A program made the position numbers and the translations under genes. Shown here piece by piece: positions 23,704 through 39,643 of a stretch of DNA of 39,643 nt; position 1 is the first letter of the stretch; every line of letters begins with the position of its first letter. The DNA is from Lachnospiraceae bacterium MD308 (lineage in GTDB: Bacteria; Bacillota; Clostridia; Lachnospirales; Lachnospiraceae): assembly GCA_010206225.2 (NCBI GenBank), contig VIQU02000034.1:1-39643 (forward strand), written 5' to 3'. Below the pieces are notes generated by a model, which was given only the letters and a program-made list of their open reading frames with translations, ran no database searches and had not been told where the DNA came from.

Positions 23704-23714
23704 ATCCTCTCCCT

Positions 23715-24361: not shown

Positions 24362-24442
24362 TCTCAGTTTCGTACTCCGTTTAAGATTAATTCGTCTCCC
24401 TAATAAATTACGGGCAGAACTCCCTGCCCGTATAACTCTCCT

Positions 24443-24697: not shown

Positions 24698-24755
24698 GTT
24701 TCTATAACTCCTTTTTGTATAAATTACTAGAATCAGTCTACCACAAATCCAAAAA

Positions 24756-25595
24756 CTATACAACTACTATTATCCCGCCGTCCGAGGCATACATGCTGCT
24801 GATTCCTCTCGTATCAAGGACAATGATATCCTTAAACTCTGCTCTCGATTCCAGCATACGCTTCACCTGCTCTGCACGCTCCCTGCAATTACAATGTGAG
24901 ATCGCAAGAATCTTCTCTCTGGAATCCTTCACATTCTCAATAATAATGTCACACATCTTTGCAAGAGCCTTTCTGATCCCCCTTGTCTGAGAAAGCTGGC
25001 AGATATTTCCTTCTGGAGTTGCCCCCATTATCGGTTTGATATTGAGCGCTGTCGCCACAACCGCCTTCAGTCCGGTCAATCTTCCGTTTTTCCGGAGCGT
25101 ATCAAGCGTCTCCAGTACAAAATAAGTATCCTGTTTTTGAATATAATCCTCTACGGTCTCTACAGTCTCGGAAAAACTCATCCCGCTCTCCTCACACTCT
25201 GCAATCTTAAGCGCGATCAATGTCTCTCCGATGGAGGCCGAACAAGAATTAAACACATGAATATCCTTCTGTCCGTACTCGTCTATATAAAGCTTTCTGC
25301 CAAGCTCTGCACTGTTATAGGAACCGCTGAGTTCTGCCGAGAGTGTTACCGCATAGATATGCTCCGCCTCGCACTGATATAATTCCATATACTGCTTCGG
25401 CGACGGACAGGAAGACTTGGGACAATCCGGCGCTTCCTTCACTCTCCTCAAAAAATCCGCCTGATCAAATGTCTCATCATCCACAATATTGTGTCCTGCT
25501 ACCTCGATGCTCAGAGAGGCCGTCTTAAAATGTCCTGACTTTTTCATATCACTGCTTAACTCACCGCAGCTATCGACAACAACTCTATAACTCAT
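24756..25595 (-). CDS. DegV family fatty-acid-binding protein
   Basis: 279 residues from the ATG at 25595 (GGGAGG with 6-nt spacing), beginning MSYRVVVDSCGELSSDM, the normal DegV opening. Family features: the SCPSPKQYM segment (the SxPS lipid head-group loop), VTLSAELSGSYNSA, and the C-terminal domain with LETLDTLRKNGRLTGLKA and NIKPIMGATPEGNI. DegV/FakB proteins bind a fatty acid, and some present it to the kinase FakA. No fakA is visible nearby, so the role here is not fixed. It lies 119 nt downstream of the second ftsW-like gene on the same strand. Confidence 0.92.
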   Translation of the reverse strand: MSYRVVVDSCGELSSDMKKSGHFKTASLSIEVAGHNIVDDETFDQADFLRRVKEAPDCPKSSCPSPKQYMELYQCEAEHIYAVTLSAELSGSYNSAELGRKLYIDEYGQKDIHVFNSCSASIGETLIALKIAECEESGMSFSETVETVEDYIQKQDTYFVLETLDTLRKNGRLTGLKAVVATALNIKPIMGATPEGNICQLSQTRGIRKALAKMCDIIIENVKDSREKILAISHCNCRERAEQVKRMLESRAEFKDIIVLDTRGISSMYASDGGIIVVV

Positions 25596-25714
25596 ATCCA
25601 TCCTCCCGACATACGCACATTTATATACTTTTGGCATGTCATTCATTTCTATAATACATAGTATTAAATACTACTTAATCATCATAGCATATTTATGCCG
25701 GAAAGGAAAGTATT

Positions 25715-26878: not shown

Positions 26879-26902
26879 ATTATTTGCACTCCAATCGTTA
26901 TT

Positions 26903-26931
26903 ATTATACTTTGACACGGAATTAAAAACAA
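26903..26931 (-). promoter_or_regulatory. Promoter of the second ftsW-like gene
   Basis: Minus strand TTGTTT (26931-26926), a 17-nt spacer, then TATAAT (26908-26903). The start would fall near 26896, between the discarded GTG and the ATG at 26878. Confidence 0.72.
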
Positions 26932-26954: not shown

Positions 26955-26984
26955 TAACACCTTTTGTCATATTTTCATACAATA
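26955..26984 (+). promoter_or_regulatory. Mother-cell promoter of the cotJ operon (sigma-K-like)
   Basis: TAAC (26955-26958), 17 nt, then CATACAATA (26976-26984). This fits the sigma-K consensus (HMAC, 16-17 nt, CATANNNTA). CATACAAT is also a perfect sigma-E -10, but I see no matching sigma-E -35 at 13-15 nt. Either way the signal is of mother-cell type. The cotJA ATG follows 36 nt later. Confidence 0.65.
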
Positions 26985-27019: not shown

Positions 27020-27328
27020 ATGCCAAATTTTCGTTATCAGTCATCTGACTATATGAACATGCGGCGCGGAAATTACCGCGGATCAGTCACAGCAATGCAG
27101 ACTTCCTGCCAGCCTTCCTGTGAAACTTCCTGCCGAGAATCCTCCGCTCCGGTATGCTGTAATGACAAAGAAAGTTATGATGAACTGCGCGGAATGCCTC
27201 TTGCCATGGCCTATGTTCCGTGGCAGGAATGGCGCTCTCTTCACGAGGCCGACAAAGCTTTCCACCGCGGTACGATCTTTGAAGAGCTTGACAAACCATT
27301 TCGAGGGATAGGAGGATGCTGCAGATGA
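27020..27328 (+). CDS. cotJA: Spore coat-associated protein CotJA
   Basis: 102 residues with GAAGGAG before the ATG. The C-terminal half is characteristic of CotJA: MPLAMAYVPWQEWRSLHEADKAFHRGTIFEELDKPF. The N-terminal half is Cys-rich (QTSCQPSCETSCRESSAPVCC) and ends with GGCCR; cysteine clusters are common in clostridial coat proteins. CotJA, B and C are assembled together into the inner coat. The gene overlaps cotJB by 4 nt. Confidence 0.92.
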   Translation: MPNFRYQSSDYMNMRRGNYRGSVTAMQTSCQPSCETSCRESSAPVCCNDKESYDELRGMPLAMAYVPWQEWRSLHEADKAFHRGTIFEELDKPFRGIGGCCR

Positions 27329-27594
27329 GTGAACAGAAACCTTGCCGGAACGAATTACTGGAATGGATCAATGTTGTAAGCTTTGCCGTAGATGATGTAA
27401 AGCTCTTTTTAGACACACATCCCTGCAACATGGAAGCACTGGAATATTTTGAGGAATTTAAAAAACAGCGTGTGCAGGCTTTAAAGGAATACGCAAAATA
27501 TTTTGGTCCCCTGACCATTGATACCGCCAGCCCATGTGAGGATCACTGGACATGGATTCACGAGCCGTGGCCGTGGCAGAAAGGAGGATGCTAG
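27325..27594 (+). CDS. cotJB: Spore coat protein CotJB
   Basis: 89 residues from the ATG at 27325 (ATGA overlap with the cotJA stop; GGAGG 9 nt upstream). Typical features: NELLEWINVVSFAVDDVKLFLDTHP, ALEYFEEFKKQRVQALKEYAKYFGPLT, and the Trp-rich C-terminus HWTWIHEPWPWQKGGC. It is translationally coupled to cotJA and followed after 3 nt by cotJC. Confidence 0.93.
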   Translation: MSEQKPCRNELLEWINVVSFAVDDVKLFLDTHPCNMEALEYFEEFKKQRVQALKEYAKYFGPLTIDTASPCEDHWTWIHEPWPWQKGGC

Positions 27595-27597
27595 TTT

Positions 27598-27924
27598 ATG
27601 TGGAATTATGAAAAAAGATTGCAATATCCTGTAAATATCACACAGACCAATCCCAAGATTGCCCAGGTGATCATCAGCCAGTTCGGCGGTCCGGACGGAG
27701 AACTGGCCGCATCCATGCGGTATCTGTCTCAAAGATATACAATGCCTTACAATGAAGTGACAGGGATCTTAACCGATATAGGTAGAGAAGCCCCTGAAAT
27801 GTTCCATCTCAGGGGCCCCAGCTTTTTTTCACTCTTTTACTCTGTGTGCGGGGAAGCTTCCAGTGGATGCTTTCCCGTAAGCGGTCTACCCTGCGGACAG
27901 TTTACGCTTTTTGCAACCGTGTAG
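27598..27924 (+). pseudogene. cotJC: cotJC, interrupted after ~62 codons by a mobile element
   Basis: The first ~62 residues (MWNYEKRLQYPVNITQTNPKIAQ... SQFGGPDGELAASMRYLSQRY to GILTDIG) are unmistakable CotJC, a manganese-catalase-like coat protein normally of ~190-220 residues. In intact genes the motif continues TEELxHLE. Here it changes at about 27784 to an unrelated tail (REAPEMFHLRG...) that stops at 27922-27924. The ferritin-like metal-binding residues of later helices are missing. The rest of the gene was not found in the window, so it presumably lies beyond the far end of the element. If the element never leaves, cells lack CotJC. Confidence 0.88.
27790..27829 (+). terminator. Terminator just inside the element's left end
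   Basis: GCCCCTGA (27790-27797) pairs with TCAGGGGC (27809-27816), followed after CCCAGC by T7. It would stop cotJ transcription entering the element against the recombinase gene. Confidence 0.75.
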
Positions 27925-29597
27925 CTCCATTTGAGGGGGAGCAGATTCAAATACACATCAATATGGTCTTTATCATTCACAACCATTTTATCTAAAATTT
28001 CTTTGTAAAAATCATCTTCATATTCCACGCCGTTTATAAGCTCATTCATCGCTTCTGTAATTTCAGCGACAAGTTCTTGCTGTTCCTGTGGCCTCTCCCT
28101 CTGTTTGTCTATCCGATCAAATGCTCCACCGGAGCATTTGTCTGGATACTTAGGCATGCTATCTATCACGGATTGCAGTTTTGCAATCTCATTCTCGCAC
28201 TTTGCTCTTGCTGCTGAAAATTCATCTCTGGTAATATCGCCAGATGTATAAAGGTCAATGAGGTTTGTGCGTTTTTGCAGGGTGGCTTTTATCTGTGATT
28301 TTAGTTTCTCACTGTCTGTACCTGTGGTATCCATTGCCGCGCCCTTCGGGCATACTTTGATGCCATACGGCATATCAGATGAAATTACAGACTTGATAAT
28401 AGCAAGCAAATTATTAGTGATTTTCTCCTTATTATACTTTAAGCTGCTCGTGACGAGGTACATGATGTGGGTTGCATCTTCGTTGCGTATGCTAAGTCCA
28501 CTGCATCCAACTTGATTCCCTGCTTTGTCCACATGAGGGCTTCCATGTCTTGCAGCTTCAAGACACCGCCACGCCTTATAGCGGCTCCCATTTTTTCGGG
28601 CTTTATATCTCGCCACATAACCCCCGCCGCAGCATCCGCATTTGATTTTCCCAGAAAATGGATAACGGTTGCTGTGTTTCGCTTTGCCCTTCTGTGAAAG
28701 CGATTTTTCATCCAAAATGCGGTTTGCCTTATCGAAAAGCTCACGGGAGATAATCGGTTCATGATGGTCTTTGATAATCACAAATTCCTCTTGCCCGAGG
28801 TTTACTTTCTTTTCATGGGATAAAAAGTCTGGCGTATAGGTTTTCTTCTGCACCAAATCACCGCAGTATTTTTCATTGCGGATAACACGAAGAATGACTG
28901 TGTTCTGCCATTCTTTTACACGCATGGGCTGAATGCCCTCCTCCCGAAGCTCACGGGCAATCACATGAGTTCCTTTCCCCTCATTTACAAACTTATGGAA
29001 GATAAGACGGACAACCTTTGCCCCATCCTCATTAATATACATTTTGCCGTCTTTCACATCGTAGCCAAGCATACTCCGCCCAAACACAACCCCCTGCTCC
29101 ATCTGGCGTTTCTGCCCCCATTTCACACGCTCGGAAGTCTTACGGCTTTCCTCCTGTGCAATCGAGGACATAATGGCAAGACGAAGCTCCGCATCTCCGT
29201 CTAAAGTGTTGATGTTATCATTCATAAAGATAACACCCACGCCGTGCTTCTTGAGGTCACGGGTATAGAATATACTATCAAGGGTATTTCTCGCAAAACG
29301 GGAGATTTCTTTTGTTACAATCAAATCAAAATCACCGTTCTTTGCACACGCAATCATGCGGTTAAATTCTTTCCGTTTTTTCGTATTCGTACCAGAGATT
29401 CCTTCATCTGCGAACACTTCATAAAGCTCCCAATCGGGATTACGCTCTATATACTGTCTGAAATAACGCTGCTGGCTTTCAAATGAATTTGCCTGATCTT
29501 CGTTGTCCGTAGATACACGGCAGTATGCGGCAACCTTTCTCTTTGTGTGCTGTATCTTCCTTTCTTGATTTAGTGTTTCGTATTTATCTATTGACAT
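27837..29597 (-). CDS. Large serine recombinase (site-specific integrase/excisionase)
   Basis: 586 residues from the ATG at 29597 (AAAGGAG site). The catalytic domain has the Ser in AAYCRVSTDNEDQ (about residue 29), then DEGISGTNTKKRKEFNRMI, TKEISRFARNTLDSI and the ESRKTSERVKWGQ helix. The DNA-binding recombinase domain and a zinc beta-ribbon (KCGCCGGGY...WRC...GCSG, four Cys) follow, with a coiled-coil C-terminal section (KLKSQIKATLQKRTNLIDLY). Such enzymes of the TndX/TnpX type insert and excise clostridial transposons. The gene reads toward the cotJC junction. Its 5' leader closely matches that of the AraC gene 6 kb away. Confidence 0.93.
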   Translation of the reverse strand: MSIDKYETLNQERKIQHTKRKVAAYCRVSTDNEDQANSFESQQRYFRQYIERNPDWELYEVFADEGISGTNTKKRKEFNRMIACAKNGDFDLIVTKEISRFARNTLDSIFYTRDLKKHGVGVIFMNDNINTLDGDAELRLAIMSSIAQEESRKTSERVKWGQKRQMEQGVVFGRSMLGYDVKDGKMYINEDGAKVVRLIFHKFVNEGKGTHVIARELREEGIQPMRVKEWQNTVILRVIRNEKYCGDLVQKKTYTPDFLSHEKKVNLGQEEFVIIKDHHEPIISRELFDKANRILDEKSLSQKGKAKHSNRYPFSGKIKCGCCGGGYVARYKARKNGSRYKAWRCLEAARHGSPHVDKAGNQVGCSGLSIRNEDATHIMYLVTSSLKYNKEKITNNLLAIIKSVISSDMPYGIKVCPKGAAMDTTGTDSEKLKSQIKATLQKRTNLIDLYTSGDITRDEFSAARAKCENEIAKLQSVIDSMPKYPDKCSGGAFDRIDKQRERPQEQQELVAEITEAMNELINGVEYEDDFYKEILDKMVVNDKDHIDVYLNLLPLKWSYTVAKSVNCPQGRPLTGKHPLEASPHTE

Positions 29598-29605
29598 AAG
29601 AATAT

Positions 29606-29666
29606 CTCCTTTCCTTAATTTTGCCCATTTTTTCAGGGCATAAAGGTATACCCTTGCGGTGTTTCC
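29606..29666 (-). promoter_or_regulatory. Conserved 61-nt leader, copy 1 (upstream of the recombinase)
   Basis: Aligns without gaps to 35616-35676 at 48 of 61 positions, starting at the ribosome site. It contains a TGCCC/GGGCA stem. The minus strand can also be read as a peptide (NTARVYLYALKKWAKLRKG) that is similar between copies. Could be a leader peptide or a structured RNA. Confidence 0.7.
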
Positions 29667-29839
29667 CGACAATCCCTTGCCGTATTTTCAGTATAGTTAA
29701 TTGAAAATGGTATGTCGAATGTGCAAATTTGAATACAGAACATAAATTACACATTTCTGTAAATTACAACTGTATTCATGAGCAAGTAACGAGAGTGGAT
29801 TGCGAATATCCTCTGCTTTCTCACACTTGACTATGTAAA

Positions 29840-29871
29840 AACGTCAAGCGGTTATGCCTGACGTTGCTTTT
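29840..29871. terminator. Bidirectional terminator after the SHOCT-like gene
   Basis: AACGTCA (29840-29846) pairs with TGACGTT (29859-29865). Plus side GC then T6; minus side TTTTTAC. It lies directly after the stop of the small gene at 29874. Confidence 0.75.
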
Positions 29872-29873
29872 TT

Positions 29874-30059
29874 CTAATTTAGACGATATTGTTTTTCAAG
29901 CTCAAGCAGGCAGCGTTCCCGCTGTGATGCGGTCAACAGATTCCGTTTTTCTAATGATAAAAGGATTGACCTTTGAAAATTCATAAGAAATGCTGCGTGT
30001 TCCTGCTCATTCAATTCTGGAACAGGCTCGCCAACATATCTAAATTCTCTATGCTTCAA
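29874..30059 (-). CDS. Small SHOCT-like protein
   Basis: 61 residues starting with TTG at 30059, which has GGGAGG 9 nt upstream; no ATG fits. Sequence MKHREFRYVGEPVPELNEQE... ends SLEKRNLLTASQRERCLLELEKQYRLN. The last ~25 residues resemble the short helical SHOCT oligomerisation motif (a leucine pair, LLT, then a charged helix). Small genes of this kind often accompany serine recombinases in clostridial elements, but I know of no function. It lies between the MazF fragment and the terminator, same strand as the recombinase. Confidence 0.55.
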   Translation of the reverse strand: MKHREFRYVGEPVPELNEQEHAAFLMNFQRSILLSLEKRNLLTASQRERCLLELEKQYRLN

Positions 30060-30120
30060 CAGGCAACACCTCCCTCATTCTCAATATATGAGCGAATGAT
30101 TGTACCATATAACGAGGGGG

Positions 30121-30474
30121 CTAATCCTTTTTTTGAACGCTGTCATCATGCAGCGGACAACATTCATGAGCAGGTAAAGAAGCCGAGAGACTGCCCTGCT
30201 TCATCGGGCATTGCGAATATCCGTTTAAGCCAATGCTAATTGCCAACACTTTGTCCATTGCAGGAAGAAAACGCTTGTCATTAGAAATGATAAGTACGGG
30301 TCGTATGCCGCCCTGCTCCGAACCGACAACGGGCTTATGCTCGGAAACCGCCCTATGTAGCTGTTTGTATTCGATGCTCTCTGAAACTATATCCTCAATC
30401 CGTTCAGCCTTATAAAAAGCTCTGTCATTCAACGTTTCTTCGGTCAGCTCGGAATGTTCAATGTGCCTGCTCAT
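30121..30474 (-). pseudogene. MazF/PemK toxin fragment in a 117-codon frame
   Basis: Only the stretch KPVVGSEQGGIRPVLIISND matches the beginning of MazF/PemK endoribonuclease toxins (there usually GDIYYADLSPVVGSEQGGxRPV). What precedes it lacks the family's first strand. What follows (KRFLPAMDKVLAISIGLNGY...) lacks the SPTVIVAAIT core, and no antitoxin gene is adjacent. The last ~40 codons overlap a sequence that is partly repeated outside the frame at 29772-29812, which suggests it is not coding. The only ATG sits directly on the GGAGGG site. Likely debris; a chimeric small protein is not excluded. Confidence 0.5.
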
Positions 30475-30527
30475 CCCTCCAAACTAAAGCAGGTTTGGAA
30501 GGACTTTTATTTTTGGCATGGCAAAGC

Positions 30528-30563
30528 AGCCCACCAAACGCTGTTTTTTTTATTTGGCGGGCT
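30528..30563. other. Hairpin without T-run, downstream of the ABC-F gene
   Basis: AGCCCACCAAA (30528-30538) pairs with TTTGGCGGGCT (30553-30563) with one mismatch; the loop is T-rich on the plus strand. It lacks a U-tail in either direction, so it may stabilise the 3' end rather than terminate. Confidence 0.4.
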
Positions 30564-30604
30564 TCCCCTTGCCTCTGGCACTATTTACAAAAAGTGCTTT
30601 TGAC

Positions 30605-32140
30605 CTATATTTTCTTCTCTATATTTATCACTTTCTGCGTCCACTCACGGTAAAACGCTTCTTCATGTGACACCAACAGTACTGTCCCCTCAAATTCCTC
30701 CAGTGCGGTTTTCAACGATTCTTTGGCAAGCGCATCAAGGTGGTTTGTCGGCTCGTCCATGATAAGGAAATTGCACGGCTTCATCATAAGTAGGCACATT
30801 TTAACCTTTGCCTGTTCCCCTCCGCTCAAAGTCCCGATTTCCTGCATGGCGTGTTTGCCTGAGATGCCGCAGCCTGCAAGACGCTTTCTCACGTCTTTTA
30901 TCGTAAGCGATGGGTAAGCATCGGAAACAATCTGAATGGGCGTTTTTTCTATATCCGCCCATGCCAACTCCTGCTCAAAATACCCTATCTTTACCTGCTC
31001 CGAAAAACGGAAACTCCCGCTTAATGAGGGTATTTGACTGATAAGCGTTTTTAGCAGGGTGGATTTGCCGATGCCGTTAAATCCCGTCATAACAATTTTC
31101 TCTCCCCCTTTTATGGAAAAGCTGATGTCCGACAAAACAGGATAGTGGTAGCCAACATCCAGATGTTTTACTTTTAGATGCTCTGTCGTAGTCAGCGGGA
31201 GAGCTTCAAACCGAAAATGTGGCTTGATTTCTTTCTGTTCCAGAGCTTCCATCTTATCCATTCGGTCAAGCTGTTTCTGCCTGCCACGAGCCATTTTTGA
31301 CTTTCTCCCTGCAATATTCCTGCGGATAAATTCTTCCGTCTTTTTGATGGTTTTCTGCTGTGCGGCATACTGTCTGATATAATCCTCACGGAGCAGTGCC
31401 TTTTTTCTCGTGAACTCTGAATAAGTGCCAAAATATTTTGTAATCTTCTCGTTGTCAATGTCGCATATCCTTGTGGATATTTTCTCTAAAAAGTCATAGT
31501 CATGCGATACTACCAGAAAAGCGTTTGGCAGGCTGGAAAGATATTCGGCAAGCCATGTAACATGTTCCTTGTCCAAGAAGTTTGTCGGCTCGTCCAAAAG
31601 CAAAATATCTGGCTTCTCAAGCAGCAATTTTGCCAGTATGACCTTTGCCCTCTGCCCGCCGCTCATCTGTTCAATCGGTCTGTCTAACCCAATTGCCGTT
31701 AAGCCAAGACCTGTTGCCACCTGTTCTATCTTTGTGTCAATCAAATAAAACTCCTTGCGCTCTAATTCTTCCTGATACCTTGCCGCCGTGCTTAGCTTCG
31801 CCATATCCCCATCCGCAGACTGGCAGTACAGCTCATTCATCCTGTTTTCTATCTCATACAACCCAGAAAATGCGGATTGCAGGAACTCCCTCATCGCCAC
31901 GCTTTTTTCTATTTGGGCGTACTGGTCGAGATACCCTATTTTTGTGTTCGGCTGCCATACTATCCTGCCAGAGTCGGGGATAATCTGCTCCGTGCAAATC
32001 TTTATGAACGTGCTTTTTCCTGCCCCATTCTGACCGACAATCCCGATATGCTCCCCTTTGTTCAATGTAAAATCCGCATTTTTAAACAGATAATTTTCTC
32101 CAAAAGAATGTGTTAATCCCGTAACTTCTAATAAACTCAT
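30605..32140 (-). CDS. ABC-F protein, probable ribosome-protection antibiotic resistance type
   Basis: 511 residues from the ATG at 32140 (GAGAGG 9 nt upstream); an ATG at 32146 is too close, and the longer frame reaching 32281 runs through leader hairpins. Two ATP-binding halves without membrane segments: Walker A GQNGAGKST (36-44) and GFNGIGKST; signatures MSGGQRAKV and LSGGEQAKV; Walker B LLLDEPTNFLD and LIMDEPTNHLD. The linker is long and basic (RKSKMARGRQKQLDRMDK). ABC-F factors bind the ribosomal E-site and either help translation or dislodge antibiotics. The mobile setting and the attenuator leader favour a resistance factor (lincosamide/pleuromutilin/streptogramin class), but the drug cannot be named. 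Confidence 0.88.
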   Translation of the reverse strand: MSLLEVTGLTHSFGENYLFKNADFTLNKGEHIGIVGQNGAGKSTFIKICTEQIIPDSGRIVWQPNTKIGYLDQYAQIEKSVAMREFLQSAFSGLYEIENRMNELYCQSADGDMAKLSTAARYQEELERKEFYLIDTKIEQVATGLGLTAIGLDRPIEQMSGGQRAKVILAKLLLEKPDILLLDEPTNFLDKEHVTWLAEYLSSLPNAFLVVSHDYDFLEKISTRICDIDNEKITKYFGTYSEFTRKKALLREDYIRQYAAQQKTIKKTEEFIRRNIAGRKSKMARGRQKQLDRMDKMEALEQKEIKPHFRFEALPLTTTEHLKVKHLDVGYHYPVLSDISFSIKGGEKIVMTGFNGIGKSTLLKTLISQIPSLSGSFRFSEQVKIGYFEQELAWADIEKTPIQIVSDAYPSLTIKDVRKRLAGCGISGKHAMQEIGTLSGGEQAKVKMCLLMMKPCNFLIMDEPTNHLDALAKESLKTALEEFEGTVLLVSHEEAFYREWTQKVINIEKKI

Positions 32141-32184
32141 AATCATTGTCCTCTCTTTTTCCTGTCTGATTTTCCAAAATGGGC

Positions 32185-32222
32185 AACCGTGGGAAACATG
32201 CTTATGCAAGTTACCCACGGTT
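32185..32222 (-). promoter_or_regulatory. Leader hairpin 3 of the ABC-F gene
   Basis: AACCGTGGG (32185-32193) pairs perfectly with CCCACGGTT (32214-32222). No T-run follows. Just upstream, GGAATGC/GCATTCC (32241-32256) forms another short stem. Both lie within the long untranslated leader and may take part in alternative folds. Confidence 0.5.
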
Positions 32223-32279
32223 CGCGGGCAGCGCCAAATTGGAATGCAAGCATTCCACCTTGGCTTATGCCTTACGCGC

Positions 32280-32327
32280 AAAAAAATAGCAGAAGTCAGA
32301 TACTCTTGGTATCATGCCTTCTGCTAT
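32280..32327 (-). terminator. Leader terminator 2 of the ABC-F gene (attenuator)
   Basis: CTTCTGCTAT (32318-32327) pairs perfectly with ATAGCAGAAG (32286-32295), with an inner GATAC/GTATC stem, followed on the minus strand by a run of at least six T. It sits 140 nt before the ABC-F start, so read-through is needed for expression. Confidence 0.8.
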
Positions 32328-32371
32328 ATCCGTTCCATCACAAACCGCTTTTAGGAAACAGCCCATATACA

Positions 32372-32405
32372 ACAAAAGGCTACGGACAAAACACTGTCCA
32401 TAGCC
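32372..32405 (-). terminator. Leader terminator 1 of the ABC-F gene (attenuator)
   Basis: TGTCCATAGCC (32395-32405) pairs with GGCTACGGACA (32379-32389) with one mismatch over 11 bp and a 5-nt loop; TTTTGTT follows on the minus strand. Confidence 0.75.
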
Positions 32406-32503
32406 TGCTGCACACAAATTTGTACGGGAAAAGAAACAATATATGAAAAAGATATAAAATCCCTCCCATGTACTGCTGTATTTCCCGATGAAATCCTAAC
32501 GTG

Positions 32504-32602
32504 TTATATTACGCTATACTCTGTACAATGTTTCATCGGATTTGATTGTACAGAGCTGATTTTCTTTTTAGGCGGAAGTTCGTTTGTAATGTAAAAGCTC
32601 AT
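32504..32602 (-). CDS. Leader peptide of the ABC-F gene (32 residues)
   Basis: ATG at 32602 with a strong AAAGGAG 9 nt upstream, then a short frame MSFYITNELPPKKKISS... ending in TAA at 32504. Its last third is encoded by an 11-bp inverted repeat (CTCTGTACAAT at 32519-32529 with ATTGTACAGAG at 32545-32555). A ribosome stalled in the PPKKK region would open or shift this stem. This is the layout of ribosome-mediated attenuators of erm, vga/lsa-type and other resistance genes. I do not recognise the peptide itself. Confidence 0.7.
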   Translation of the reverse strand: MSFYITNELPPKKKISSVQSNPMKHCTEYSVI

Positions 32603-32634
32603 GAAACTGTTCTCCTTTAAAATTAATGCAAATT

Positions 32635-32664
32635 ATTCTAGCATGAAAACCAGCAGTTTGTCAA
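32635..32664 (-). promoter_or_regulatory. Promoter of the ABC-F leader
   Basis: Minus strand TTGACA (32664-32659), 18 nt, TAGAAT (32640-32635). Transcription would start near 32628, giving a ~490-nt leader before the ABC-F start codon. Confidence 0.72.
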
Positions 32665-32764
32665 ATCCTATTTTTATGAAATTTTCAGTTTTTATCTCTC
32701 ATAATAGGAAATTTTATATCTTATATAAGAGGTATTGCATAATTAAATTAGATGTTACGCTTGT

Positions 32765-32813
32765 ATAAAAACAGAGCCAACAAACTATGGTTTCCCACAC
32801 GTTCATTGGCTCT
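32765..32813 (-). terminator. Terminator after the GNAT gene; also copy 1 of a repeated hairpin
   Basis: AGAGCCAA (32773-32780) pairs with TTGGCTCT (32806-32813); TTTTTATAC follows on the minus strand. Its sequence is close to the hairpin at 37901-37943 (21 of the last 24 bases identical), including the loop. Confidence 0.78.
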
Positions 32814-32831
32814 GCATCTATGTGTCTGGCT

Positions 32832-33326
32832 CTATCCTATATTCTTCTTTAACCGTATTCCCATTGAAAAATACGGCTCACTTAAATATTCTTCTTTGTC
32901 GATGCTGTATCCTCTTTTTTTATAAAAGGAAACCGCATGATGGTTATTTTTAAACGCCCATATCACAATTTCTTTATACCCTTGTTCCTCCGCCTCTTGC
33001 TCAGCAAAATCCATCAGCATTTTCCCAATTCCTTTCCCTTGAAATTGGGAAGCAACATAAATACGCCAGATTTCAAATGCCCCTGCCATATCCGCATCTG
33101 CCGTATCTCCAAAAGACAACATTGCCGACACTCGGTTTTCTTCCTCCCACACATACTCTGACAGTCTGCGAGCGGCAAAATCTGTCTTTAATCGGTGTGT
33201 CCTTGCTGCACATCCATCTGAATTTAGCAGCAGCGGATTGACATATCCAGAATAAACATTTTTCCAGTTCTCATTTACAATGTCACATACCGTATCAATG
33301 TCCTTTTCTTCTAATGGTCGTATCAT
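32832..33326 (-). CDS. GNAT-family N-acetyltransferase
   Basis: 164 residues. The acetyl-CoA loop is VASQFQGKGIGKMLMDFAEQEA (Q-x-x-G-x-G near residues 95-100), preceded by WRIYV and followed by IVIWAFKNNHHAVSFYKKRGY, the standard motif A and B arrangement; N-terminal MIRPLEEKDIDTV. AGGAG lies 4-5 nt before the ATG. It is the third gene of an araC, MATE, GNAT series and ends at a terminator. The substrate is unknown; drug or metabolite acetylation is possible given the neighbours, but nothing specific to an aminoglycoside or streptogramin enzyme is seen. Confidence 0.88.
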   Translation of the reverse strand: MIRPLEEKDIDTVCDIVNENWKNVYSGYVNPLLLNSDGCAARTHRLKTDFAARRLSEYVWEEENRVSAMLSFGDTADADMAGAFEIWRIYVASQFQGKGIGKMLMDFAEQEAEEQGYKEIVIWAFKNNHHAVSFYKKRGYSIDKEEYLSEPYFSMGIRLKKNIG

Positions 33327-33419
33327 TTCTCTCTCCTAAATATCGTTTTTCCATTCATTCCCAACCACTGTCACACGCAGATTTCTCACTTCTATCAATC
33401 TTTCCTGCCTGCCTTTCTT

Positions 33420-34760
33420 TCAAAAATAGTTGTATTGTTTCCGATGCCTGCATAGCAGATATACTGTCAGCATAAGCGTGAAAAGTTCCGCAAACGGTAC
33501 TGCAAGCCATACGCCCGTTACCTCTAAAAATCTCGGCAATACCAAAAGGGACACCGTAATAAATCCAAATGTCCGCAGGAAAGATATGGTTGCCGATACC
33601 TTTCCATTCGATAACGCCGTAAATAAAGCGGATGAAAAAATATTGCATCCAGAGAACAGAAAGCTGAATGAAAAAATGCTAAATCCATTCTTTGTAATCT
33701 CAAAAACATTCCTGTTGTTCTCCGCAAATACCTTTGCAATGCTTTCTCCACCAAGCAGGGAAAATAAAAATACAAATATGGAAATCTCCGCTATAAAGCT
33801 GAAACAAATACAGACAGTCTTTTTTAGCTGTTTTACATTCCCGCTCCCATAGTTATAGCTTACGACGGGAGCTGTTCCCATAGAAAAGCCAATATAAAGC
33901 GTTGTTAAGAGGAATTGCGAATAGATGATTACCGTAATCGCAGCTACGCCATCCTCATCTAACAGCTTCATCATCGTTATATTAAACAGAAATGTCGTTA
34001 CGGCAGTCGAACACTGGCTTACCAGTTCCGACACACCGTTGGAACAGCTTTTCAGCAGAACAGATGCGTCCATATTAGGCTTGCAAAAGTGCAGCTCACT
34101 TCTTTTCAACAGAAAAAATATTGTACCGATAATTGACGGTATCATATATCCGATGCCTGTCCCAATAGCTGCTCCCTTGATTCCCATTTGCAGCAAAACG
34201 ATAAAGACATAATCAAAAACAATGTTGCTGGTCCCCGCCAGAACAGCAAGCACTAAGCCTAATGTCGGTTTCCCCGCCGTCACAAACAGATTCTGATACA
34301 GCACCTGCATCATGTTAAAGGCGGCGAAAATGAGCTGTATCGTCAGATAATCCCTGCAATAGGGGAACAAGATTTCACTTGCACCCAATCCCCAGATGAT
34401 TTCATCCAAAAAGAGAAGCCCTGCCGCTGTAATCAGCAGACCGATAACCGCCCCTGCCACGACAATCAAAGTAAAATTGCTTCTGGCTTCCCCTGTGTTT
34501 CCATTCCCCATTTTCTTCGCAACGACCGCACTGCCGCCCGTCGCAAGCATCGTCCCCAGACCGACAATCAGATTGATGACAGGGCAGACGATATTGATGG
34601 ACGACAAGGCGTTCGTGCCTACAAACCGTGCGACGAAAATCGTGTCCACAATGGTGTATAATCCCATAAACAGCATCATCACCATGCTTGGGAAAGCAAA
34701 TCTGATAAGGGATAGGGCGTTAAAGCTCTCTGCTAACGGGTTTTTCTGTGTTTCGGTCAT
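33420..34760 (-). CDS. MATE-family multidrug efflux transporter (copy 1)
   Basis: 446 residues from the ATG at 34760, which has AAGGAGGAAAC 9 nt upstream and overlaps the end of the AraC gene by 41 nt. Twelve predicted membrane segments in two similar halves; MATE marks include the FPSMVMMLFMGLYTIVDTIFVARFVG opening, NIVCPV..LIVGLGTMLATGGSAVVAKKMG, and GMGTAPVVSYNYGSGN at the start of the second half. It exports cationic drugs or metabolites using a Na+ or H+ gradient. The overlap with the AraC-GNAT regulator points to translational coupling and local control. Only ~25-30% similar by eye to the second MATE gene at 36449, so not a recent duplicate. Confidence 0.9.
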   Translation of the reverse strand: MTETQKNPLAESFNALSLIRFAFPSMVMMLFMGLYTIVDTIFVARFVGTNALSSINIVCPVINLIVGLGTMLATGGSAVVAKKMGNGNTGEARSNFTLIVVAGAVIGLLITAAGLLFLDEIIWGLGASEILFPYCRDYLTIQLIFAAFNMMQVLYQNLFVTAGKPTLGLVLAVLAGTSNIVFDYVFIVLLQMGIKGAAIGTGIGYMIPSIIGTIFFLLKRSELHFCKPNMDASVLLKSCSNGVSELVSQCSTAVTTFLFNITMMKLLDEDGVAAITVIIYSQFLLTTLYIGFSMGTAPVVSYNYGSGNVKQLKKTVCICFSFIAEISIFVFLFSLLGGESIAKVFAENNRNVFEITKNGFSIFSFSFLFSGCNIFSSALFTALSNGKVSATISFLRTFGFITVSLLVLPRFLEVTGVWLAVPFAELFTLMLTVYLLCRHRKQYNYF

Positions 34761-35607
34761 TATCTGTTTCCTCCTTGTTTTTCGGTGGAAGCACGAAACG
34801 CTGCGTCGGATAGCCATATTCCACAAGCAGTTCCCGTTCTGCAAATCCAAGACGGCGGTATTCTTCCCGCCAGCCCGTATCTGCCTTATCGCCTGCACGG
34901 TATGTCGTCAACGTAATCTCTTTCCCATAAAGCAACTCGTCTGCCAGCTTATCAAGGAACAGCTTTGTAATACCAAGATGCCGATACTGCGGATGGACAG
35001 CCAGAAAGTCTATGCTGCCTGTGCCTTGCGAAAATCCCATCACGCCAATAGCCATATCGTCATCCCGTAAAATCAAAGCCTTTTTATCCGCAATATACCG
35101 ATGCAGGTTTGTGGTGTAATCTTTTTTATCCAGACATGGATAGCCGTCAATCGTGAGGCTTACCAGTTCCATCCAGTCATCCACATCTTCGGGCGTGGCA
35201 AATTTAATATTGTCTTTTGTCAAATCCATTTTTACAAGTTCCTCCTTCAGATAGATTTCAAGCTGTAATGGGTAGAAGTTTTCCGTTTCCCGAAATTCCG
35301 CAGGAGAAGTCTTATACATCGCCTTAAAAATATCCGTAAATGCCTGCTGGCTTTCATACCCGCTCATAAGGGCAATCTCGATAATCGGTTTTGCAGAAAA
35401 CACCAGAAGTTTTGCCGCTTCCGTAAGCTGCCGCCGTTTTGCGTAATCATGGATAGTCAAGCCGACGGTCTTTGTAAAAATCCGATGCAGATGATATTTG
35501 GAATAGTGCAGTGCCGATGCCACCATATCTAAATCCATCTTTTCATGCAGATGTTCTTCGATATAGCGGATAGCCTGTGAAACAATGCGTACTGTCTGAC
35601 CTTGCAT
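34720..35607 (-). CDS. AraC-family regulator fused to a GNAT domain
   Basis: 295 residues from the ATG at 35607 (AGGAGG, 8-nt spacing). Residues ~1-105 hold the two helix-turn-helix units of AraC (MVASALHYSKYHLHRIFTKTVGLTIHDYAKRRQLTEAAKLLV and IIEIALMSGYESQQAFTDIFKAMYKTSPAEFR). From about residue 130 a GNAT fold follows (SIDFLAVHPQYRHLGITKLFLDKLADELL... YRRLGFAE), where the Q-x-x-G-x-G loop is altered to QYRHLG, so acetyl-CoA binding may be weak. The C-terminal part could serve as a ligand sensor. Likely activates the downstream MATE and GNAT genes. Its leader matches that of the recombinase. Confidence 0.88.
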   Translation of the reverse strand: MQGQTVRIVSQAIRYIEEHLHEKMDLDMVASALHYSKYHLHRIFTKTVGLTIHDYAKRRQLTEAAKLLVFSAKPIIEIALMSGYESQQAFTDIFKAMYKTSPAEFRETENFYPLQLEIYLKEELVKMDLTKDNIKFATPEDVDDWMELVSLTIDGYPCLDKKDYTTNLHRYIADKKALILRDDDMAIGVMGFSQGTGSIDFLAVHPQYRHLGITKLFLDKLADELLYGKEITLTTYRAGDKADTGWREEYRRLGFAERELLVEYGYPTQRFVLPPKNKEETDNDRNTEKPVSREL

Positions 35608-35615
35608 TTTGCGAC

Positions 35616-35676
35616 CTCCTCTCTTCATTCTCGCCCATGCTTTATGGGCATAGAGGTACACCCTTGTGGTGTTTCC
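35616..35676 (-). promoter_or_regulatory. Conserved 61-nt leader, copy 2 (upstream of the AraC gene)
   Basis: 48 of 61 positions identical to 29606-29666. It contains ACACC/GGTGT and GCCCAT/ATGGGC stems. The peptide reading is NTTRVYLYAHKAWARMKRGG. The G-T versus A-T pair at the stem end in the two copies is compatible with a conserved hairpin. Confidence 0.7.
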
Positions 35677-35797
35677 TCGTTTTCACCCTCATTTTTTTAA
35701 CATTACGAAATGTCAAAGCAGGGGTTCAATGAGATATTGTAGCACAAGGAGTTTTCTATCTTTTCATCATTCTTGCTATGTTTTAAACCATCTTCAT

Positions 35798-36325
35798 TTA
35801 CAGCAGTTCTTCTTTCAATGCCCTTATCCATTCTTCGATTGCCTGCACTAATCGAAATTGCTGATGCAGAACCGCCATGCCCGTGGCAGGAATATCGGGA
35901 GCATTTTCTTTTAAATCTATGTTCTCCTCAAGATAGGATTTCAGCACATTGATATTGCTTTCAATGTTATCCAAACATTCCCTCTGCTGTTCCTTTTCCA
36001 TGCTTTCTAAATTAACAATAACCGCATTAAAGTCCAAGAATATGTTAATCGGCTTGCAGGATATTTCAAGCATCAGTTTCTCAAATTCCTCATTTCCTGC
36101 ATCCGTCAAGGAATATACTGCCTTTTCGGGCATTTTTCCCTCTTTCTCCGTGCGGCTTGTGATAAGCCCCTTTTCTTCCAACTGGATAACCTTTTTATAG
36201 ATGGATGGTGTGCTGATTTTTACCCACTTTGAAATGTTGCGGTATTCCACCAGTTTCTGAATATCGTATGCACTCAAGGATTCCCGTTTCAACATTCCCA
36301 ATACAATCAAATCAATGGTCGCCAT
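35798..36325 (-). CDS. PadR-family transcriptional regulator
   Basis: 175 residues with AAAGGAGGG before the ATG. The winged helix is MATIDLIVLGMLKRESLSAYDIQKLVE... SKWVKISTPSIYKKVIQLEEKGLITSR, and the C-terminal half is the helical dimerisation domain of the longer PadR_1/Vir type. Such regulators usually repress an adjacent transporter until a drug binds. It is divergent from the MATE gene at 36449, with palindromes in the shared promoter, so it most likely represses both itself and that pump. Confidence 0.88.
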   Translation of the reverse strand: MATIDLIVLGMLKRESLSAYDIQKLVEYRNISKWVKISTPSIYKKVIQLEEKGLITSRTEKEGKMPEKAVYSLTDAGNEEFEKLMLEISCKPINIFLDFNAVIVNLESMEKEQQRECLDNIESNINVLKSYLEENIDLKENAPDIPATGMAVLHQQFRLVQAIEEWIRALKEELL

Positions 36326-36346
36326 TTAAAATCCCTCCTTTTTCTA

Positions 36347-36409
36347 TTGACAACTACTATAAATTATAGTATTATAGCCCCTGCAACGCAATTACTATAT
36401 TTTATAGTA
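36347..36409. promoter_or_regulatory. Divergent promoters with two PadR-type palindromes
   Basis: Plus strand: TTGACA (36347-36352), 17 nt, TATTAT (36370-36375) drives MATE copy 2. Minus strand: TTGCGT (36391-36386), 17 nt, TATAAT (36368-36363) drives padR. The palindrome ACTATAAATTATAGT (36356-36370) covers both -10 regions. A second, TACTATATTTTATAGTA (36393-36409), lies on the padR -35 and downstream of the MATE -10. Confidence 0.75.
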
Positions 36410-36448
36410 GTATAAAAAATACTATTTACCAAGAGAAAGGAGTTCAAA

Positions 36449-37879
36449 ATGAACAGTCCAAGCAAAAAGATGGAGCTGCTCGGCAGCACATCCATACCAA
36501 AAGCACTTTTAGCAATGGGCATCCCAACAATGATTGGCATGTTGGTAAATGCTTTCTACAACCTTGTTGACGCTTATTTTGTCAGCGGGCTAGGGGAGCG
36601 CCAGATGGGGGCAATCTCCGTGGTCTATCCGCTCGGACAGGTCGTTGTCGGTCTTGGTCTGCTGTTCGGAAACGGTGCGGCTTCTTACATTTCCCGATTG
36701 TTAGGTCGTGGGGACAAGGAAAATGCGGATAAAGTGGCAAGTACCGCTTTATACAGCAGCGTATCCGTTGGGGCAGTTATCATTATCATTTCTATGGTGT
36801 TCCTGCATCCCATACTGAAGCTCTTGGGGGCAACCGACAGCATCCTCCCCTTTGCCGCCACATACGCAGGCATTTACATTGTTTCCTGCATCTTCAATGT
36901 GTTCAATGTCACGATGAATAACATTGTGACTAGCGAAGGAGCAGCTAAAACAACCATGTGTGCCCTGTTGACGGGTGCGGTACTCAATATCGCCTTAGAC
37001 CCGCTGTTTATCTATGTGTTTGATTTAGGCGTGGCAGGAGCAGCGATAGCGACCGCAATCTCACAAGTTGTTTCAACCTGCGTATATCTGACCTATATTT
37101 TTCAGAAAAAGAGCGTATTCCATTTTCGGGTTAAGGACTGCACATATACAAAAGAAATCCTCTCCGAGGATACCTCTATGACATTCGTCAGCACTAAGGA
37201 AACCATGTCTGAGATTTTCAAAATCGGCATCCCGACATTGGTATTCCAGATTTTAACGAGTGTGTCCATTTCCTTAATCAACAATGCCGCTGGCGGTTAC
37301 GGGGACTCTGCCATTGCAGGCATGGGCGTTGTTACCCGCCTTATTTCAATGGGCAGCTTGTCCGTATTCGGCTTCATCAAAGGTTTTCAGCCCATTGCAG
37401 GGTACAGTTACGGGGCGAAGAAATTTGACCGTCTGCGTGAAGCAATCAAGACTTCCATACTATGGTCTACGGCTTTCTGTGTGATTTTTGGCGTGATACT
37501 GGCTTTGTTCCCTACGGCTATCGTTTCCCAATTCACAAAGGGCGATGCCGAGATGATTCGCATCGGTGTAACGTCTTTAAGGGCAAACGGCATTTCCATT
37601 ATGCTCTTTGGATTTTATACGGTGTATTCTTCCCTGTTCCTTGCTTTAGGAAAAGGCAGAGAGGGATTTATCCTCGGAGCTTGCAGGCAGGGGATTTGCT
37701 TTATCCCCGTTATCCTGCTTCTTCCGATTGTCTGGGGACTAAATGGAATAATGTATGCCCAGCCGATTGCCGATGTGTTTTCCGCAGTCATAACAGTATT
37801 CATGGCGATACCGCTCCACAAAAAGCTGAATGAGATGCAGAAACAAACTTCCGTAATAAGCACGAAAGACAACGACTAA
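36449..37879 (+). CDS. MATE-family multidrug efflux transporter (copy 2)
   Basis: 476 residues with AGAAAGGAG before the ATG. Twelve membrane segments; MATE marks include MGIPTMIGMLVNAFYNLVDAYFVSGLG, YPLGQVVVGLGLLFGNGAASYISRLLGRGD and, in the second half, GFQPIAGYSYGAKKFDRL. The DAYFVSGLG/GAASYISR pattern is typical of the clostridial MepA-like group. It is the only plus-strand gene of the cargo and is under the divergent PadR gene. The predicted substrate is cationic or amphipathic drugs; none can be specified. Confidence 0.92.
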   Translation: MNSPSKKMELLGSTSIPKALLAMGIPTMIGMLVNAFYNLVDAYFVSGLGERQMGAISVVYPLGQVVVGLGLLFGNGAASYISRLLGRGDKENADKVASTALYSSVSVGAVIIIISMVFLHPILKLLGATDSILPFAATYAGIYIVSCIFNVFNVTMNNIVTSEGAAKTTMCALLTGAVLNIALDPLFIYVFDLGVAGAAIATAISQVVSTCVYLTYIFQKKSVFHFRVKDCTYTKEILSEDTSMTFVSTKETMSEIFKIGIPTLVFQILTSVSISLINNAAGGYGDSAIAGMGVVTRLISMGSLSVFGFIKGFQPIAGYSYGAKKFDRLREAIKTSILWSTAFCVIFGVILALFPTAIVSQFTKGDAEMIRIGVTSLRANGISIMLFGFYTVYSSLFLALGKGREGFILGACRQGICFIPVILLLPIVWGLNGIMYAQPIADVFSAVITVFMAIPLHKKLNEMQKQTSVISTKDND

Positions 37880-37900
37880 ATTTTTATCTTTCTGACAAAC

Positions 37901-37943
37901 AGAGCCGATGAGCTGTGAGGTTTCTCACAAGTTCATCGGCTCT
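37901..37943. repeat. Copy 2 of the repeated hairpin, downstream of MATE copy 2
   Basis: AGAGCCGATGA (37901-37911) pairs perfectly with TCATCGGCTCT (37933-37943), with an inner TGTGAG/CTCACA stem. No T-run follows on the plus strand; GTTTGTC follows on the minus strand. Closely related to 32773-32813. Confidence 0.7.
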
Positions 37944-38016
37944 GCCCGTGTCAAGTAAAGGACAAAAAATTTTTCAACTTTTTTATTCCTTTACATATGT
38001 ATTTAACCTTCTTCCC

Positions 38017-38709
38017 TTAATCAATATCTATGTCATCCCAAAAACCTTTAAAATCCTCTTCCTCCAATCGTTTGGCATTCACTTTATCCCGTATTTCCAA
38101 AACCATCTTCATTATCTCTTCCCTTGTATGCGGGCTGTCCTCCATCACTTTGTCTATATCAATGTCTTTATGTCTCATTTTTATCAGACCGTCTATGATA
38201 TGAGAAACATGATCCACAAATACCTCTTCCATAATCGCATTCTTCGTTTTAGCATCTGTTCCCTCATATTCGTCATAATACGCACTGATATATTCTGAAA
38301 ATTTCTTTATCTTCTCCGGGGATTCCAAAAAAGCTACTAATGTTTCATCCTCACAACTTTTCTTACTCCGTTTCAGATATGAAACGATTTTACCAAATAC
38401 CTTTTTAACAATGTCATATGACATATTTCCAATCAAACCACTTGCAACAGCCACTGCCACAAAATTTAATATCTCACTACAGGGTTCTGTATAATAGCGC
38501 CTCCCATCGTCCTCTACACCATCATACCTTTCCCTGCATGTCCATCCTCCAAAAACAGCCTGCCTAATACCTTGCATTACCTTTTCATATTCTGATAACA
38601 GTATACTTTTTCCACAAACCGGACACGTCAATATTTCCTCGCCTTCCATCTCATAAATGGAAGCACAGTGAAAACATATTTTTCTAAAGTCGCCTTCTTT
38701 ATGATCCAT
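38017..38709 (-). CDS. Unrecognised protein with N-terminal zinc ribbon
   Basis: 230 residues. Two CxxC knuckles (C12-FH-C15 and C29-PV-C32) form a zinc-ribbon like those on regulatory or RNA-binding proteins. Next comes a Tyr/Arg-rich stretch (FGGWTCRERYDGVEDDGRRYY) and a hydrophobic glycine-containing segment (ILNFVAVAVASGLIGNMSYDIVKKVFGKIVSYLK, about residues 80-113) that could insert in or lie on a membrane. The rest is charged and helical, with a very acidic C-terminus (DFKGFWDDIDID). It begins 8 nt after the stop of the two-membrane-segment protein, with AGGAGGG between, so the two are coupled. Base composition is more AT-rich than the housekeeping part. No family recognised. Confidence 0.65.
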   Translation of the reverse strand: MDHKEGDFRKICFHCASIYEMEGEEILTCPVCGKSILLSEYEKVMQGIRQAVFGGWTCRERYDGVEDDGRRYYTEPCSEILNFVAVAVASGLIGNMSYDIVKKVFGKIVSYLKRSKKSCEDETLVAFLESPEKIKKFSEYISAYYDEYEGTDAKTKNAIMEEVFVDHVSHIIDGLIKMRHKDIDIDKVMEDSPHTREEIMKMVLEIRDKVNAKRLEEEDFKGFWDDIDID

Positions 38710-38717
38710 TTTCCCTC

Positions 38718-39308
38718 CTATGCCGTTTCTGCATTTCCTGATTTTTGCTCTTCAATTATTTCTTGAACAATCGTTATGAAATCCGAATAAAACTCATTCT
38801 TCAAATTATTACTTCTAATTCTAACAGACGCAAAGAATAAAAACATCAAAACAATCAATCCCATTAAAAAAGCTCCCCAAATATAAAACCACATTCCGGA
38901 ATGTAAATTTTGTTCCAATGCCTCATATATTAGCTTTGGATTATACCCTGTATACTCCAAAAATTCTTCATCTATCAACATATTTATAGAATTATTATAA
39001 GTATTTATCACATTGACCACTGAAAATACAAATGTATATACAATCGTAATGAACACCGTTAATAACGGCATTGTACACCCATTCCACATTTCTTTTCTGC
39101 TCATAATTAGATTTTTCTCACGCTTCAAATAATGCACAAAATTTTTCAATGTAGACTCTGCATACTTACCGCCTCCATATTTCTCACAAATATAACCATG
39201 CCATTCACAGTAATTTTGATATGGTGATTTTTCCTCCCCTATCCTACTATATATTGTCAGTTCTTCGTTTATATCAAATCCATACGCATATTCCTTAACC
39301 CTTTTCAT
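38718..39308 (-). CDS. Unrecognised protein with two membrane segments
   Basis: 196 residues. An N-terminal cytoplasmic region of ~75 residues rich in Tyr/Lys/Glu (MKRVKEYAYGFDINEELTIY, NYCEWHGYICEKYGGGKYAE) is followed by two hydrophobic segments (about 79-103 and 138-160) separated by a ~35-residue outside loop, then a helical tail (SDFITIVQEIIEEQKSG). An in-frame stop lies just upstream of the ATG, so the start is firm, though the ribosome site (GAGG, 11 nt away) is weak. First gene of a two-gene unit. The IS1182-like insertion begins about 40 nt upstream and may have displaced the natural promoter or earlier genes. Function unknown. Confidence 0.62.
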   Translation of the reverse strand: MKRVKEYAYGFDINEELTIYSRIGEEKSPYQNYCEWHGYICEKYGGGKYAESTLKNFVHYLKREKNLIMSRKEMWNGCTMPLLTVFITIVYTFVFSVVNVINTYNNSINMLIDEEFLEYTGYNPKLIYEALEQNLHSGMWFYIWGAFLMGLIVLMFLFFASVRIRSNNLKNEFYSDFITIVQEIIEEQKSGNAETA

Positions 39309-39403
39309 TCCAAATCAAACCTCATCTATACTTTTACCTATATCAAGATGTTGGGGTCAAAAGCCCCCTAATATAGCACCTTGAAAACTTCACACAGATT
39401 CCC

Positions 39404-39453
39404 ATCAACCGCCAAATGTGGTATACTATATCTATCAGAGAAAGGCGGTTGAT
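39404..39453 (+). promoter_or_regulatory. Inverted repeat that can mask the transposase ribosome site
   Basis: ATCAACCGCC (39404-39413) and GGCGGTTGAT (39444-39453) are perfect 10-nt complements; the second arm contains the AGGCGG ribosome site. A -10-like TATACT (39422-39427) lies in the loop, so transcripts from the element's own start (about 39433) would lack the first arm, while read-through transcripts would carry both. Confidence 0.65.
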
Positions 39454-39457
39454 AAAT

Positions 39458-39643
39458 ATGTCATTTAGAGCAAATTCCAGCCAACAGATATCTTTCACCG
39501 ACAGCTTTAACGGACTTACTTCCCGGGAGCAGAAAGCCCTGGAGAACTCCTGGGCAAAGACATTTGCTGAAGACATCTTTCCTTCCATAAATGAGGAGCC
39601 TTTCCGTGCGCTGTATTCAGACAGCGCTTCTAGGCCGAATACC
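39458..39643 (+). CDS. IS1182-family transposase, N-terminal part (runs off the window)
   Basis: 62 codons from the ATG at 39458 to the window edge: MSFRANSSQQISFTDSFNGL, then TSREQKALENSWAKTFAEDIFPSINEEPF and ALYSDSASRPNT. The SWAKxFAExIFPxIxEExFxxLYS...SRPNTP block is the usual start of IS1182-type DDE transposases. AAGGCGG lies 10 nt upstream. The catalytic domain is outside the window, so intactness is unknown. Confidence 0.85.
   Translation, partial: MSFRANSSQQISFTDSFNGLTSREQKALENSWAKTFAEDIFPSINEEPFRALYSDSASRPNT

Follow-up and report, generated by a model that had tools for sequence, protein, structure and literature searches.

Developmental DNA rearrangement in spore-forming bacteria is so far known from a handful of genes. 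Published accounts describe intervening elements (skin, SP-beta, vfbin, vrin, gin and yin) that split sigK, spoVFB, spoVR, spsM, gerE and yabG (PMC5595907, PMC5025042, PMC4191935, PMC10747680). SP-beta, in spsM of B. subtilis, is a mobile element that has a serine recombinase and divides a mother-cell spore-envelope gene, and its excision during sporulation, which restores spsM, is reported as shown (PMC4191935). The skin element, found in sigK of B. subtilis and C. difficile, likewise places a serine recombinase inside the gene it splits; it is described as being kept in the germline and, in C. difficile, as being associated with a small directionality factor (PMC5025042). In gerE of B. cereus, the non-phage element gin combines several serine recombinases with a split mother-cell gene and a likely history of recent horizontal transfer (PMC5595907).

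Here we describe an element in the spore coat gene cotJC that resembles this class in that a sporulation gene is split, its frame is restored on paper, and the recombinase lies inside the element. It also differs from each of the systems above. SP-beta is a phage, whereas the element described here is a composite with phage remnants whose excision is predicted from sequence (PMC4191935 for SP-beta). The skin target, sigK, encodes a regulator, whereas cotJC encodes a coat protein in which divergent recombinases use three separate zones (PMC5025042 for skin). Finally, gin as described is one element in one gene, with sporulation control that has been demonstrated (PMC5595907).

We found no report of a split cotJC in the open-access literature searched, most subscription papers lying outside that search. 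The attR of C. difficile phage phi027 is located just upstream of a CotJC-like gene, which the two papers on this phage do not describe as split. MAFF2-type frames are given as the main target of a mobilizable element that carries tet(W) in gut bacteria (PMC12904643).

The divided cotJC gene of MD308 and its inserted element

The window, by which we mean the whole stretch of 39,643 nucleotides analysed here, is one contig (C85) of the draft genome of Lachnospiraceae bacterium MD308 (G000; 4.35 Mb in 156 contigs). The original prediction held that a sigma-K-like promoter is followed by intact cotJA and cotJB genes, that cotJC loses family similarity after about 62 codons, and that a serine recombinase near the break reads towards it. 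All three statements are borne out (Table 1): both upstream genes have Pfam matches and follow a promoter site of the expected type, and the cotJC frame, 108 aa long, matches its family until about codon 62 and is unlike it thereafter. The recombinase, whose open frame spans 27837-29672 on the minus strand and has Resolvase, Recombinase and zinc-ribbon domains, has its 3' end 52 nt inside the break and reads towards the break.

The missing part of cotJC had been expected, in frame, at the right end of the element. Such a remainder is present, but on a second contig of the same genome (C66, 33738-34112, E 3.6e-28), and the element is not closed in the assembly. Searching all contigs of the genome for the CotJC family returns exactly two matches, the N-terminal piece on C85 and the C-terminal piece on C66, and no repaired copy. 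Joined at the core GGTA, rather than at the GA that had been suggested, the two halves form a single CotJC frame of 203 aa, which reaches 385 bits when scored with a profile derived from 22 intact genes.

Is the divided gene one that would be used in the mother cell? Across 157 loci, some of which share a genome, a strict sigma-K-type pattern occurs 92 times upstream of cotJA and is rare closer to cotJC; before cotJA, a profile of the cotJ promoter reaches a score of at least 10 at 63% of loci versus about 4% of shuffled stretches. The cotJ promoter looks mother-cell-specific, and the gene order cotJABC behind a sigma-K-like site fits, as far as sequence can tell, a mother-cell sporulation gene. 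The operon is adjoined by a cell-division cluster (window 9715-26917) that includes ftsZ, SpoIIGA and two sporulation-type sigma factors. No tRNA genes that might have served as landing sites were found within the window.

Summed over the two contigs, the element measures at least 45.6 kb, with further contigs possibly lying between them. Its ends combine to GCTTCTCT-GGGT-AGAGAAGC, a perfect 8-bp inverted repeat, and form a palindromic attP. Upstream of the recombinase and co-directional with it lies a gene of about 61 codons, which recurs in 72 of the 81 loci compared; products of this gene family have a median pI near 8.5 and, in 23 chosen members, four invariant residues. By its position and size, the 61-aa protein is a candidate directionality factor. 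Published directionality factors are also small, with 53 and 72 residues (PMC10747680).

Cargo genes of the left part of the element are listed in Table 1. At 39440-39643 the contig stops within the start of what we read, from its translation, as a transposase-like frame, and the assembly may break there on its account. The part on C66 contains three serine recombinases, an amidase, tail and capsid genes and ParA/ParB-type genes, together with three tyrosine integrases, acetolactate-synthase subunits, a TetR gene and an AbiEi-like gene (just under cut-off). By its predicted gene content, the window element is a composite, a mosaic of resistance-type cargo and phage remnants. The three tyrosine integrase genes are consecutive (L004:4435-7640 on C66), a trio that we take to be Tn554-like, and so are the three large serine recombinase genes of this right part (L003:405-5323 on C66). 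The latter recall the three recombinases described for gin (PMC5595907).

Table 1. Features of the cotJ operon and of the inserted element. Positions refer to the window unless contig C66 of the same genome is named.
Feature	Position	Strand	Evidence and remarks
Sigma-K-like promoter site of the cotJ operon	26957..26984	+	AC, then 15 or 17 nt, then CATACAATA; ends at 26984
cotJA, intact	27020..27328	+	PF11007, E 1.3e-18
cotJB, intact	27316..27594	+	PF12652, E 7.1e-30
cotJC 5' part, codons 1-62	27598..27783	+	PF05067 match 1-69, E 3.5e-16; junction computed
Crossover core GGTA at attL	27781..27784		Same core in distal half, C66:33747-33750
Intervening element, left 11.9 kb	27785..39643		Runs off contig; attP symmetry of both ends
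Large serine recombinase, 586 aa from ATG at 29597	27837..29597	-	PF00239, PF07508, PF13408
61-aa basic protein, candidate directionality factor	29874..30059	-	Position and size only; no Pfam match
PemK/MazF-like frame, probably a remnant	30121..30474	-	PF02452, E 1.4e-4, just under curated cut-off
Cargo: duplicated ABC ATPase, presumably ABC-F type (our naming)	30605..32281	-	PF00005 twice, PF12848
Cargo: GNAT acetyltransferase	32832..33326	-	PF00583
Cargo: MatE-family efflux pump	33420..34898	-	PF01554
Cargo: AraC-type regulator with GNAT-like part	34720..35661	-	PF12833, PF13508
Cargo: PadR-type regulator	35798..36325	-	PF03551
Cargo: second MatE-family pump	36449..37879	+	PF01554
Intervening element, right 33.7 kb	C66:1-33746		attP symmetry of both ends

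cotJC is a recurrent docking gene

Among the genome of the window and 60 relatives, cotJC was found in 48 of 61, in many of them only as complementary pieces. A survey of the family, comprising 346 genomes for which at least 95% completeness was requested, contains cotJC in 219. We re-searched 75 genomes, made up of 69 of these 219, picked by eye for a best E-value weaker than about 7e-41, and six others; four genomes that fell within the E-value range with one match each (G134, G204, G297 and G377) were left out. Both sides of a break were recovered in at least 61 of the 75 (59 from the survey) and one side in 13 (nine from the survey), the remaining case being a frameshift (G064). At least 59 of the 219 cotJC-bearing survey genomes therefore have both sides of a break and no full-length match, a lower bound, since genomes carrying both an intact and a split copy are not included in it. 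The breaks of these 59 fall into three zones: 30 genomes are broken in zone B (codons about 62-68), 21 in zone A (about codon 31) and 12 in zone C (about codon 136), some genomes having two. What had been seen in one gene of one genome is thus confirmed as a recurrent pattern, and this large gut family provides many natural replicates of it.

Some genomes have more than one break. G002 has three cotJC pieces on one contig, G398, G419 and G432 have three pieces each, and G405 (Butyrivibrio) has four; the distance between halves can reach about 40 kb. In Acetatifactor, the genus of G426, cotJC is matched in 109 of 121 genomes, 21 of which have no full-length match (a count that leaves out one match at E 0.007 and in which at least two cases are probably contig ends). 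Partial cotJC matches occur in every one of the 50 genomes that we reached via relatives of the window recombinase, and in 11 of these a full-length copy is present too. Empty sites, which the original prediction proposed to look for, do exist in related genomes, where intact cotJC is common.

Control genes were searched in 150 family genomes. ITPase, a growth gene present in 146, shows no insertion split among the matches listed; its two irregular cases are a gap of about 140 nt inside one open frame and the overlapping pieces of a local frameshift. The sporulation gene SpoIVA, over the cut-off in 106 of the 150, was not found in two pieces, one match beginning at position 53, and it is present in all 31 genomes of this draw that have a split or one-sided cotJC. 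Two further families, CofD and YabG, were each found in 2 of 150 genomes, too few to inform.

We computed 46 junctions from 60 stretches; one of them (G064) is the local frameshift, and the choice of core is doubtful for G376 and for the first junction of G332. A serine recombinase lies within the examined stretch at 44 of the 46, the exceptions being G064 and G355, whose recombinase lies in a separate stretch (L119). The symmetry of element ends was assessed at 44 junctions, G376 and G064 being left out: true pairs reach 12.2/18 versus 8.6 +/- 1.5 for randomly paired ends (p 2e-19), and host-site symmetry at the same junctions is 7.8/18. Within this family and in other Clostridia, several divergent serine-recombinase elements repeatedly use cotJC as a docking gene.

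Nor are insertion sites scattered across genomes, a pattern that would have spoken against developmental excision. In 68 of 80 cases, a relative of the window recombinase (62-95% identity) is located within 150 nt of cotJC sequence interrupted at zone B; another seven loci include a cotJC piece at some other place, and five have none in the stretch examined. This concentration bears on the plainer alternative, raised at the outset, of a transposon of the TndX/TnpX type. Such transposons have a large serine recombinase at one edge, carry resistance-type cargo, excise precisely and insert at varied sites. The window element has the edge recombinase and the resistance-type cargo in common with them, and its composite make-up and the recent movement of its recombinase clade between genera (see below) also suit the alternative, but the targeting of one zone of one gene by its recombinase relatives does not.

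The left half, the right half and a window-type recombinase were all available in 49 of 72 genomes. Within the window clade, recombinase dS is about 0.13-0.2 for hosts that are separated by a dS of about 1 or more in their cotJC halves, and over all 1176 pairs recombinase and right-half distances are only moderately correlated (Spearman 0.43). These distances indicate that the window recombinase clade has moved between genera recently, and its insertions may be young. Because of this recent mobility the unspoiled cotJC halves of the clade prove little, and we rejected them as proof of function.

The 60 whole elements span 1.6 to 17.8 kb; at least five are repeats of another in the set, and larger elements are under-sampled. 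Elements as small as 1.6-4 kb lack recognised phage genes. Small elements often carry ordinary genes, most of which are named from a reading of their translations and few of which were domain-tested. For example, translations suggest metabolic or transport operons, and no recognised phage genes, in the elements of G325 (L061), G332 (L040) and G156 (L036). The attP pattern had no match in viral contigs.

Selection on the separated halves

Three species pairs share an insertion, as judged by alignment above 95% from the host flank into the element in left-side stretches. Identity on this side is 97.5% for the host flank and 98.1% for the element in G017/G286, 97.5% and 97.3% in G452/G462, and 91.3% and 98.1% in L150/L151, which is the weakest of the three. 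Note that the genus of G017 comprises only two genomes. Many window-clade pairs at or below 95% also aligned across the left break but were excluded from the selection analysis, their elements being far more similar than their host genes.

The cotJC parts of the three pairs have accumulated 53 silent versus 2 replacement changes (at about 275 silent and 943 replacement sites), which argues against a loss of function of the target gene in these relatives. Left halves contribute 45 silent and 2 replacement changes, and the right half, tested by one shared-insertion pair only, contributes 8 and 0; when L150/L151 is omitted, 45 silent versus 2 replacement changes are left. The recombinases of the same pairs show 84.5 silent versus 32.5 replacement changes. 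In each of the three pairs dS is lower for the recombinase than for cotJC, so that part of the cotJC divergence may predate the insertion; scaled by the dS ratio, a dead cotJC would, by our arithmetic, still predict about 70 replacements.

Comparing all pairs of split and intact cotJC (with G064, G332, G325 twice, G002 twice, G376 and G163 left out) proved too saturated to separate the two states. A relative-rate test, to which some of these were re-added as pieces, was applied to 13 same-genus pairs of a split and an intact gene, two of which (G123 and G166) use the right part only. Replacements number 142 for the split genes and 128 for the intact ones (p 0.43). Two pairs are outliers in opposite directions: G355/G168, with 14 changes on the split side and none on the intact side, which runs counter to a developmental reading, and G336/G132, with 4 and 25, respectively. 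In the genus of the window, G000, G001 and G002 are all split with both sides present and show a dN of 0.018-0.024 at a dS of 1.1-1.4; the other three sampled members have partial cotJC matches only.

Where selection can be tested in related genomes, it appears to be purifying and the split halves look functional, as would fit a gene that is made whole when needed. A probably functional gene thus reads as broken in many genomes.

Proposed removal of the elements and competing readings

The explanation that we consider best, and probably correct, is that the element is excised from cotJC in the mother cell, as are skin and SP-beta. The in-frame remainder, the shared core, the palindromic attP and the recombinase at the edge show that a large serine recombinase inserted the element by site-specific recombination, splitting cotJC at codon 62. 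Going by its enzyme class, the recombinase, together with a directionality factor, would cut the element out again at attL and attR and restore the exact cotJC. The growing cell and the forespore would retain the element and the mother cell, which dies anyway, would lose it, with the outcome that the coat protein would be made and the element still be inherited. The argument for this timing is indirect: removal in the mother cell would at once satisfy the inheritance of the element, the preservation of the gene and a promoter that looks mother-cell-specific.

Sporulation-controlled excision, as originally predicted, is favoured by the in-frame remainder, the att sites, the non-scattered insertions, the empty sites and the purifying selection seen in relatives. 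Against it stand the lack of any excision product, with no attP match in viral contigs and no repaired copy in the genome of the window, and a report that B. subtilis without CotJC has no apparent defect (PMC12122855). Promoter scans, too, show no enrichment of sporulation-type promoters, either upstream of the recombinases or within the elements. With the cotJ-promoter profile, a sigma-K-type site precedes 6 of 162 recombinases versus about 7 expected (score 10), and 60 complete elements contain 20 such sites versus 20.4 expected (score 13). Before the 61-aa gene, patterns occur at chance levels (sigma-E 4/68, sigma-K 2/68, sigma-A 7/68). These null scans leave room for sporulation control, since in SP-beta and the C. 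difficile skin element the recombinase is described as made constantly and the directionality factor alone as regulated (PMC5595907, PMC5025042).

The main rival, above all for the window element, is that plain mobile elements land in a conserved, dispensable coat gene and end its function, the halves looking unspoiled since insertions are recent and quickly replaced. This would sit well with a window recombinase clade that is nearly identical in hosts with distant cotJC, with occupancy that varies among species of one genus, with the composite build, efflux-type cargo and phage remnants of the element, and with the spare full-length copies in 11 of 50 genomes. We nevertheless judge it unlikely, though well worth keeping in view: it does not predict the excess of silent changes in the shared-insertion pairs, with or without the weakest of them, nor the lack of acceleration across the 13 split/intact pairs, nor elements as small as 1.6-4 kb and devoid of recognised phage genes. 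Moreover, an element can be mobile and excised during sporulation, as SP-beta is reported to be both (PMC4191935).

A second rival dispenses with developmental timing: elements would leave infrequently and without regulation in every cell, so that a few sporulating cells have an intact cotJC. There is a precedent in yin in yabG of C. botulinum, for which the repaired gene and the circle are reported at all time points, with greater repair later (PMC10747680), and the elements do lack a mother-cell promoter signal. However, unregulated excision should lead to a steady loss of elements, yet the three pairs have kept theirs in place since, or near, their divergence; selection this strong would in addition require repair in most sporulating cells. 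We regard this scenario as improbable. That no excision is needed, with the two halves translated separately and their products assembling into a functional protein, seems barely credible: the right half of the window gene does lie within a longer open frame with an ATG inside the element, but a common split-protein solution would have to cover three zones, up to three breaks per gene and widely separated halves.

Mother-cell excision, our preferred reading for the window element, may apply more widely. We tentatively propose, as a plausible extension, that cotJC serves as the docking gene of spore-forming Clostridia, in which divergent elements occupy three zones, up to three per gene, each having to leave in the mother cell for the coat protein to be made, and in which some elements, shrunken to hardly more than a recombinase and a DNA-binding protein of the Spo0A type, may read the host's sporulation signal through their own relative of the master regulator. 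The 1.6-kb cotJC element of G295 encodes a Spo0A_C protein of 111 aa (L042:1287-1622), and the 3.9-kb element of G035 a protein of 268 aa that combines Spo0A_C with a receiver domain (L049:1262-2068); no relatives of Spo0A_C were found in the other whole elements at E 1e-5. The pattern opens the questions of why mother-cell genes are places where mobile DNA settles, how one gene can be cleared of several elements in time and, further, whether cotJC elements influence the spores through which gut commensals are dispersed.

In L185 (G423), another Spo0A_C-like frame, which may be a host gene, is located close to an intact cotJC and outside any element. In the smallest element, the recombinase frame (305 aa, L042:1842-2759) lacks a zinc-ribbon match and continues across the right crossover into cotJC; the C-terminus of the recombinase may therefore change upon excision.
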